A DNA stretch of 64,000 nt, taken from contig NZ_QEKH01000002.1 in the NCBI RefSeq assembly GCF_003096415.1, forward strand, positions 124,001 through 188,000. Reading direction: 5' to 3'. Below the pieces are notes generated by a model. It worked only from the letters and a program-made list of their open reading frames with translations, was not told the DNA's origin and ran no database searches. Position numbers and translations under genes: made by a program. Below, piece by piece: positions 17,890-35,505 of this stretch (position 1 is the stretch's first letter; every line of letters starts with the position of its first letter). This stretch comes from Victivallis vadensis. GTDB lineage: Bacteria; Verrucomicrobiota; Lentisphaeria; Victivallales; Victivallaceae.

Positions 17890-17947
17890 CGGAAAAAATA
17901 ACAAACGCGGTGTGCGGGACGGGAAAATACTCCCGGGCGCACACCGC
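17890..17947 (-). terminator. Strong intrinsic terminator after purQ
   Basis: Perfect 11-bp arms CGCGGTGTGCG (17905-17915) and its complement (17937-17947). On the minus strand the hairpin is followed by TTTGTTATTTTTT. It lies 64 bp past the purQ stop. The remainder of 17670-17890 shows no gene. Confidence 0.8.
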
Positions 17948-18010
17948 GTCTGCCGTTTCCGGCAACGGTCAGCCGCCTTTCCATCATCGTGAAAGGCGTC
18001 TGCAGCAAGT

Positions 18011-32322: not shown

Positions 32323-32358
32323 AAGCCAAGATTCCTGTAACGTTTTGTGATCGTTCGA

Positions 32359-32382: not shown

Positions 32383-32441
32383 AACCGGTATCCCGGAAAC
32401 CCGACGATATAAGACAACGACGCATGCCGTTCTCTTTTACA

Positions 32442-32584
32442 GGCGTGAAGCCGCCAACGCGAACCGCGGCAACCTCAACGAAAGCTCGGAGCTTCAGAAA
32501 CGCGAGCCGGACAGAAAAATACCACCCGACGCGGCTTCACGCCATCGGGGTCCAGGGTCCTCGCTGATTTTCGTATTTTTCTGT
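32442..32584 (-). ncRNA. Candidate pseudoknotted leader RNA of the CorA-like gene
   Basis: Two perfect 12-bp inverted repeats are interleaved: GGCGTGAAGCCG at 32442-32453 pairs with 32532-32543, and ACAGAAAAATAC at 32511-32522 pairs with 32573-32584. Each stem has one arm inside the loop of the other, so they form either a pseudoknot or two alternative structures. Smaller hairpins lie inside (AAGCT/AGCTT at 32482-32494; CGCG/CGCG at 32458-32468). A good minus-strand promoter begins 48 nt upstream of the structure, and the corA start codon follows 120 nt downstream. The wording does not match the M-box Mg2+ riboswitch or other classes known to me. Riboswitch or attenuator function is inference. 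Confidence 0.5.
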
Positions 32585-32638
32585 TTCTCTTTCATATTCC
32601 TGACTGCTGGTTGATTGACGAATAGCAGACTATTTCAG

Positions 32639-32667
32639 AATATACCTCTCCCGCCGCCCTTTTTCAA
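32639..32667 (-). promoter_or_regulatory. Candidate promoter of the CorA-like gene
   Basis: Minus-strand TTGAAA (32662-32667), 17-bp spacer, TATATT (32639-32644). Transcription from about 32632 gives a leader of about 310 nt, unusually long for this window. Confidence 0.65.
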
Positions 32668-34575: not shown

Positions 34576-35505
34576 ATGAAAATTGTCGGAATTTCATGCT
34601 GTCTGATACTGTTGTCGTTCTTTGGAAGAGGAGTAATTGCAATGGAACACATCCAATCCCCCTATGGTCCCTTGTCGGTCGAAGAAAAGCAGGTGATCCT
34701 GAACCACGGCACGGAGCGTGCGTTCACCGGCTGCTATACCGATACGTTTGAGTGCGGAGTTTACGCGTGCCGCAATTGCGGCGCGCCGCTCTACCGGTCC
34801 GATGACAAATTTCACTCCGGCTGCGGCTGGCCGGCCTTCGACGACGAAATTCCGGGAGCGGTTCGGCGGCTTTCCGATCCCGGCGACAGCCGCACGGAAA
34901 TTCTCTGCGCCGGGTGTGGAGCCCACCTCGGCCATGTATTCAGTGGGGAACAGTTTACCGCAAAGGATATTCGGCATTGCGTGAATTCGCTCTCTCTGCG
35001 CTTTGAACCGCAGCAGGGCGGACGGCTCGGCCGCGCGGTGTTTGCCGGAGGCTGCTTCTGGGGCGTCGAGGCGATGCTGGCCAGGCTGCCAGGCGTGGCG
35101 GCCGTCACCAGCGGTTATACCGGCGGCAAGGTCGCAAATCCCTCCTATCGCCAGGTCTGCTCCGGCAAGACCGGCCATGTCGAAGCGGTCGAAGTGGTGT
35201 TCGACCGGAAACAGACCGACTTCGAGACGCTTTGCCGCTGCTTTCTGGAAATTCACGATCCGACGCAGGAGGACCGGCAGGGACCGGATATCGGTCCGCA
35301 ATGCCGTTCCGCGATCTTTTATCTGGATGAAGAACAGGAAAAGACGGCGGAGCGGCTGCTGGAACTGCTCAGGCGGAAAGGATACCGGATCGTGACCCGC
35401 GTTGAGAAGTTCGAACGCTTCTGGAATGCCGAGCCCGGCCATCAGGATTACTACCGGCGCAATGGGCAAACGCCGTATTGTCATATTTACACCAGACGTT
35501 TCTGA
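34576..35505 (+). CDS. msrBA: Exported MsrB-MsrA fusion, peptide methionine sulfoxide reductase
   Basis: 309 aa. A 22-residue hydrophobic leader (GISCCLILLSFFGRGVIA) suggests export. The MsrB domain (about 30-145) has paired zinc-type CxxC motifs (CRNCG and CAGCG), FHSGCGWPAFD and the catalytic Cys135 in RHCVNSLSLRF. The MsrA domain (about 150-309) has the catalytic Cys160 in AGGCFWGVEA, GYTGGKVANPSYRQVCSGKTGH and a C-terminal QDYYRRN. Together they repair both stereoisomers of methionine sulfoxide. The order B-A is the reverse of neisserial PilB. GGAGGAG lies 3 bp before the start. The leader contains two Cys but no clear lipobox. Confidence 0.93.
   Translation: MKIVGISCCLILLSFFGRGVIAMEHIQSPYGPLSVEEKQVILNHGTERAFTGCYTDTFECGVYACRNCGAPLYRSDDKFHSGCGWPAFDDEIPGAVRRLSDPGDSRTEILCAGCGAHLGHVFSGEQFTAKDIRHCVNSLSLRFEPQQGGRLGRAVFAGGCFWGVEAMLARLPGVAAVTSGYTGGKVANPSYRQVCSGKTGHVEAVEVVFDRKQTDFETLCRCFLEIHDPTQEDRQGPDIGPQCRSAIFYLDEEQEKTAERLLELLRRKGYRIVTRVEKFERFWNAEPGHQDYYRRNGQTPYCHIYTRRF

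Follow-up and report, generated by a model that had tools for sequence, protein, structure and literature searches.

In gut bacteria of the Victivallis family, corA is preceded by a tiny, previously undescribed upstream ORF (uORF), and its translation by the ribosome probably decides whether the CorA transporter is made. Comparison of this uORF and its associated helices with those of relatives points to a leader-peptide attenuator read by the ribosome, not to a metal-binding RNA aptamer. The element was characterized in the window, i.e. the whole 64,000-nt stretch of Victivallis vadensis DNA that was analysed, and its features are listed in Table 1. An earlier note on this DNA had proposed a new structured RNA of the metal-riboswitch type in the corA leader. 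The idea of a structured switch was right but the riboswitch framing was not supported, because the ORF carries the conserved information: three of the four helix arms (A, B, and A') fall within the 33-codon uORF, and across the family no other part of the leader is as well conserved as its peptide motif.

Table 1. Features of the corA leader region of V. vadensis (positions in the window)
Feature	Position	Strand	Basis
corA promoter, TTGAAA-17-TATATT	32639..32667	-	sequence; similar promoter in nearly all relatives
uORF (leader peptide), 33 codons + TGA: MKEKQKNTKISEDPGPRWREAASGGIFLSGSRF, then stop	32494..32595	-	ORF, start, and stop kept in 9/9 genus genomes; dN/dS
Arm A (ACAGAAAAATAC), uORF codons 4-8	32573..32584	-	repeat search; helix tests in relatives
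Motif SEDPGPR, codons 11-17, acidic-proline, last codon rare CGA (32547-32545)	32545..32565	-	family leader comparison
Arm B (GGCGTGAAGCCGC), uORF codons 18-22, adjoining the motif on its 3' side	32531..32543	-	repeat search; helix tests in relatives
Arm A' (GTATTTTTCTGT), uORF codons 25-28	32511..32522	-	repeat search; helix tests in relatives
Arm B' (GCGGCTTCACGCC), 3' of uORF stop	32442..32454	-	repeat search; genus alignment; helix tests in relatives
Candidate anti-Shine-Dalgarno CCUGUAA, two-base overlap with 3' end of B'	32437..32443	-	read from sequence
corA Shine-Dalgarno region UUACAGGAA, complementary to candidate anti-Shine-Dalgarno	32332..32340	-	sequence, genus alignment, accessibility prediction
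corA, CorA-like Mg2+ transporter, 316 aa	31372..32322	-	PF01544 E=3e-33, residues 26-305

Genomic context of the corA leader

The promoter and ion transporter gene described in the earlier note are both present, and the transporter is CorA-like: its product matches PF01544 with 115.8 bits over most of the protein and scores under the NCBIfam corA equivalog cut-off. Because corA and its leader lie on the minus strand, the transcript corresponds to the reverse complement of what that note quotes; the arm order given there (L1-L2-R1-R2) holds, since the repeats are inverted. The promoter position places the probable transcription start near 32632, upstream of the distal repeat end at 32442. A TTGACA/TTGAAA-17-TATATT sequence or a close variant lies ~30–90 nt 5' of the uORF in nearly all relatives, and the aligned leaders of the genus share a common TTGACA-17-TATATT promoter.

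The V. vadensis genome carries two CorA genes, and a leader of this kind is found at one only; upstream of the second, a uORF of this kind was looked for and was absent, and a search for MgtE in the same genome gave no match. The second CorA-family gene (G000, contig C3:145564-146430) matches PF01544 with 220.7 bits, i.e. better than the CorA behind the leader. A gene for an FAD-dependent oxidoreductase (PF12831; 32793-34058, plus strand) is divergent from corA in the window. It was ruled out as the regulated target: the gene is missing from the flanks of the other eight genus loci, and the element was therefore assigned to corA. Elsewhere in the window, a frame at 34576-35505 (plus strand) has two halves that, judging by their sequence, resemble a fused MsrB/MsrA methionine sulfoxide reductase, and at 17905-17949, in apparently A-rich surroundings, the perfectly matched arms CGCGGTGTGCG and CGCACACCGCG of another inverted repeat enclose a loop of ~22 nt.

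A conserved uORF with an acidic-proline motif

A DNA search of the nine genus genomes returned one match in each, with the relatives 83–89% identical, centred on window positions 32512-32609 and always located 5' of corA. The conserved block begins with ATGAAAG, the frame is open in all nine leaders, and SEDPGPR(W/R)REA is kept together with the stop codon. The median dN/dS over the genus uORFs was 0.27 for the first 24 codons and 0.30 around the motif; the uORF peptide matched no Pfam or NCBIfam model. Across the family, the motif codons vary synonymously (GAC/GAT and CCT/CCC/CCG), and the last motif codon is CGA in 42 of the 44 motif-bearing leaders (TTA in the other two), a codon that specifies only 14 of the 673 Arg residues (2%) in the family corA genes. 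These patterns indicate that the uORF is under selection at the peptide level, and it would be translated in vivo. The family uORFs are 23–36 codons long and situated directly behind their own promoters, the motif begins at codon 4–12, and the distance from the uORF stop to corA is 66–306 nt.

Distribution across Victivallaceae

The leaders of 56 corA genes of Victivallaceae were compared, and 39 corA leaders of the phylum's other families served as the outgroup. A counterpart uORF is present 5' of corA in 50 of the 56 family leaders, usually with the six-residue motif alone kept; it carries (E/D)DPG(P/S)R in 35, DD(A/T)VP(R/L) in 9, DESPLPR in 1, and DAEPPS in 5, the last all from one genus; no such uORF was found in the other six leaders examined. 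The motif is not universal, since the five DAEPPS leaders carry a different peptide. Beyond the motif, the peptides are unrelated between genera (e.g. MSSIDDPGPRRCNAV..., MSTSDDPGPRLR..., and MKKKQKNLEQNDDPGPRWRGV...). The pattern [DE]D..[PS][RL] within the first 22 codons of a short ORF was detected in 44/56 family leaders, compared with 0.24 expected from shuffled leaders, and in 0/39 corA leaders of the other families. In many of the outgroup leaders, a further coding gene lies immediately ahead of the corA leader.

The exact DNA pattern GAYGAYCCNGGNCCNCGA gave 25 matches in 78 family genomes, 24 of them at corA leaders; the single match away from corA (in G013) lies inside a 597-aa ORF and is coding. 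A profile search of the phylum with the genus peptide returned only the genus members plus one good distant match (G107), which proved to lie in a corA leader. In the single genus with DAEPPS (L073, L075, and L077-L079), the conserved uORF reads ST(V)NTSLDAEPPSCS, with an acidic residue followed by Pro-Pro, and is possibly an independent or strongly diverged leader peptide. In L046, L049, L055, and L063, which lack the leader, corA follows a gene whose end resembles panB (for L063, PF02548 was tested), an arrangement that suggests loss of the leader when corA joins another transcription unit.

Interleaved inverted repeats and helix coevolution

The two interleaved repeats reported earlier are both perfect and lie between the conserved promoter and corA on the minus strand; the first (arms B and B') is 13 nt long, not 12, and the second (arms A and A') is 12 nt. 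Four perfect 12-bp inverted repeats with 20–100 nt between the arms occur in the window, compared with 0.8 ± 1.0 in dinucleotide shuffles, and one interleaved pair occurs, compared with none in 20 shuffled windows. Within the genus, arm B' is near-invariant, reading GCGG(C/T)TTCACGCCTG after the uORF stop in the leader alignment. The minimum free energy (MFE) folds of the window's own leader are barely more stable than those of shuffled sequences (z-scores of −2.0, full leader; −1.0, a third fold; and −0.3, core), and MFE stability is uninformative as evidence for the element. Rfam covariance models gave no matches at the gathering threshold in the window and 14 relatives and none at E ≤ 5 in the leader, in agreement with the earlier impression that the region does not read like the M-box or another known metal riboswitch.

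Other origins of the repeats were considered and rejected. A dispersed or mobile repeat was ruled out by its single copy in the genome and the lack of a phage match, and an integron, tRNA, or tmRNA remnant by ARAGORN, which returned no match. As for an intrinsic terminator, the matches in the leader were weak and the strong stems lack a proper U tract after them.

The four arms recur in other genera with changed sequences. There, A coincides with the Shine-Dalgarno (SD) sequence or the start of the uORF, and its partner A' is at the end of the uORF (CAGGAGCC:GGCTCCTG, GGCTGAAT:ATTCAGCC, and GCGGAAAA:TTTTCCGC), and B starts right behind the motif and pairs with B' 3' of the uORF stop (GGCGTGAAGCC:GGCTTCACGCC, TGCAATGCC:GGCATTGCA, and GCGTGGGG:CCCCGCGC). 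Of 50 leaders, 36 had a B:B' pairing that exceeded dinucleotide shuffles (p ≤ 0.05), and 23 had such an A:A' pairing. In a swap test, each leader's own arm was compared with equal-length arms from other groups for its fit to its own partner region; the arm windows, chosen after the alignments had been viewed, were fixed relative to the CGA codon. The mean rank was 0.142 for B:B' (z −5.7 over 21 clusters and −3.8 over 9 groups) and 0.286 for A:A' (z −3.4 and −2.3, respectively), the independence of the clusters being approximate, and the control combinations A:D (+2.1) and B:A' (−1.2) gave no comparable signal. With hand-registered arms, 94% of the pairs in the A helix within the genus were standard, and 4 of its 12 pairs showed changes on both sides; for the B helix, compared across three groups, the figures were 98% and 7 of 11. 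The manual choice of these arms makes the swap test the stronger evidence.

In homologous corA leaders, conservation and covariation were seen for both helices, which the earlier note had proposed to check. B covaries strongly with B', and A more weakly with A', the latter with weak support in several groups. The two helices would either be mutually exclusive, as in the switch suggested earlier, which fits the interleaved arms, or coexist as a pseudoknot.

A candidate expression platform at the corA SD sequence

In Victivallis, the candidate anti-SD would pair as CCUGUAA(AA) with (UU)UUACAGG at the corA SD, and this pairing reaches 9 bp in L002 and L009. In several groups, the anti-SD lies inside or adjoins B' (GGACTCCTTT versus AAAGGAGTTC in L059-L064). 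The SD:anti-SD pairing alone is significant in 14/50 leaders and gave a modest result in the swap test (z −2.2; −1.3 over 9 groups); in L059-L064, L034, L037, and L040, it is significant and overlaps B'. When B was allowed to fold with the downstream region, the predicted SD accessibility increased by 0.132 on average, compared with 0.033 ± 0.013 for shuffled uORF tails, and B:B' is therefore predicted to be the ON conformation. For most of L043-L058, this effect all but vanishes, which suggests that the platform may vary, and the moderate SD:anti-SD statistics suggest that it may differ between genera or be partly Rho-dependent.

Proposed mechanism and alternative explanations

We hold with moderate confidence that the element is a leader-peptide attenuator of corA that acts on translation, with Mg2+-sensitive abortion of the ribosome at the motif and B:B' as the on state. 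Transcription would proceed from the conserved promoter and a ribosome would then start the uORF. During efficient translation through DDPGPR and B, the passing ribosome would occupy B and make it unavailable, leaving B' and the adjoining anti-SD to pair with the corA SD, so that corA is off; in this off state, A would pair with A' and close the uORF start. Nascent chains rich in acidic residues and proline destabilize the 70S ribosome, so that at low intracellular Mg2+ translation is expected to abort at the N-terminal acidic-proline motif with its slow CGA codon. In that case, B would be ribosome-free and could pair with B', the anti-SD would be withdrawn, and corA would be translated. In this comparative sequence analysis, the order of these events and translation of the uORF itself are inferred, as are Mg2+ as the signal and drop-off instead of stable stalling. 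The motif position at codons 4–12 falls within the N-terminal range in which acidic residues exert their effects (PMC11282234). More tentatively, DDPGPR together with the obligatory CGA may represent a new built-in translation-abort or arrest code composed of nascent chain and slow codon, with the interleaved A/A' and B/B' arms forming a pseudoknot-type, ribosome-read Mg2+ switch that arose independently of enterobacterial mgtL/corL.

That control is exerted on translation is itself a deduction, and there is a limited chance that the same uORF switch acts on transcription through Rho-dependent termination in the leader, as for corA/corL and mgtA/mgtL of Salmonella and E. coli, with SD masking being secondary. 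The closest gene precedent, corA/corL, is Rho-dependent (PMC11552253), the gap between the uORF stop and corA offers room for a rut site, and the SD:anti-SD signal is only moderate; against this, the SD:anti-SD pairing is significant and overlaps B' in the several groups named above, and freeing B raises the predicted SD accessibility beyond the null.

We consider it unlikely that the ribosome arrests on the nascent peptide instead of dropping off, in which case a stable stall, its P site holding DDPGP and its A site CGA, would set the RNA conformation in the manner of ermC or SecM. An invariant short motif with an invariant rare CGA straight after Pro suits such an arrest, and this placement of a rare codon would be unexpected if acidic/proline drop-off were all that mattered. 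However, a ribosome that merely stalled at CGA would sit on the first (5') half of B and block B:B', predicting corA to be off on stalling, i.e. the opposite sign. The motif also lies very near the N-terminus, where the chain does not yet fill the tunnel, and classical arrest peptides rarely act before the chain does so. The cue for an arrest might perhaps be other than Mg2+, such as the level of charged tRNA-Arg or tRNA-Pro, EF-P activity, or another metal, but the target gene is an Mg2+ channel, which favours Mg2+.

A true metal-binding riboswitch with an incidental ORF would account for the leader position, the conserved helices, and the metal-transporter target, but is very improbable given that conservation peaks in a peptide motif whose codons vary synonymously and whose dN/dS is low, that genera share the hexapeptide while their helices differ entirely in sequence, and that the leader lacks both the conserved unpaired core expected of an aptamer and an Rfam match. 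It is equally hard to credit that this conserved, probably translated small ORF beside a transporter gene encodes a functional small protein, e.g. a CorA-binding regulator, with incidental helices, since only approximately six residues are kept across genera while the remainder changes freely in sequence, length, and charge, and the three arms inside the ORF (A, B, and A') coevolve with their partners.

Comparison with known systems

Ribosome-read Mg2+ sensing by means of destabilizing leader peptides is documented in E. coli and Salmonella, and we found no paper describing it for corA in the PVC group. The approximately 50 leaders, with a near-invariant hexapeptide and strongly divergent arms, suggest that the same solution arose independently in bacteria distant from Enterobacteria. 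They also form a compact set of natural variants for studying how acidic-proline nascent chains, rare codons, and Mg2+ jointly make ribosomes let go. As the Victivallaceae leader suggests, some ‘orphan structured RNAs’ may be translated attenuators.

The M-box (ykoK) and other Rfam metal riboswitches are likewise located in leaders of Mg2+ transporter genes, but the structured region in Victivallaceae holds an ORF and matches no Rfam family. In ermC-type attenuators, translation of a leader peptide chooses between a hairpin that masks the ribosome-binding site (RBS) and one that frees it, the signal being an antibiotic-induced stall. The logic of hairpins chosen by a leader peptide is shared with these, whereas the peptide and the target are unrelated.

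In the enterobacterial systems, acidic/proline codons of mgtL and mgtQ abort translation and thereby turn on Mg2+ transporters (PMC11282234, PMC8092293). The EPDP sequence of MgtL causes drop-off at low Mg2+, upon which mgtA is expressed, and mgtL-mgtA resembles the Victivallaceae element in having an N-terminal acidic/proline motif in the leader peptide of an Mg2+ importer and, as proposed here, mutually exclusive RNA conformations (PMC11282234). The mgtL peptide differs in sequence, however, Salmonella mgtA is Rho-dependent, and no Rfam match links the RNAs. The corL-corA system of E. coli and Salmonella also has a uORF in the corA leader, two competing structures, and a stem A that masks the uORF SD, and efficient corL translation lowers corA in E. 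coli (PMC11552253), an inverse relation like that proposed for the Victivallaceae uORF. In contrast, corL has few acidic/proline residues, a UUG start in E. coli, Rho-dependent control, and a gammaproteobacterial host, and no sequence relation was detected.

The closest likeness is to Salmonella mgtQ-mgtB (PMC8092293), in which a short ORF with ribosome-destabilizing acidic codons precedes an Mg2+ transporter gene; the acidic codons of the Victivallaceae uORF would act likewise. The acidic codons of mgtQ promote a stem that sequesters the anti-RBS of mgtB; in both systems, alternative stems overlap the ORF, one of them sequestering an anti-RBS and freeing the RBS (as predicted here), and control would be exerted at translation. 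However, mgtQ has 8 codons and lies in an operon's intergenic region under PhoP, whereas the Victivallaceae uORF has 23–36 codons and its own promoter; the mgtQ stems are nested (1:2/2:3/3:4), whereas the Victivallaceae arms are interleaved (A-B-A'-B'); and unlike mgtQ, the Victivallaceae motif DDPGPR ends in a rare CGA and its host belongs to Verrucomicrobiota/Lentisphaeria. A relation to mgtL, corL, or mgtQ was also sought through the peptide in Pfam and NCBIfam and the RNA in Rfam, which gave no match. Given the lack of any sequence relation, the interleaved arms, the different motif, and the distant lineage, we have not filed the element as a member of any of these families, but by analogy it would work like mgtL, corL, and, above all, mgtQ.
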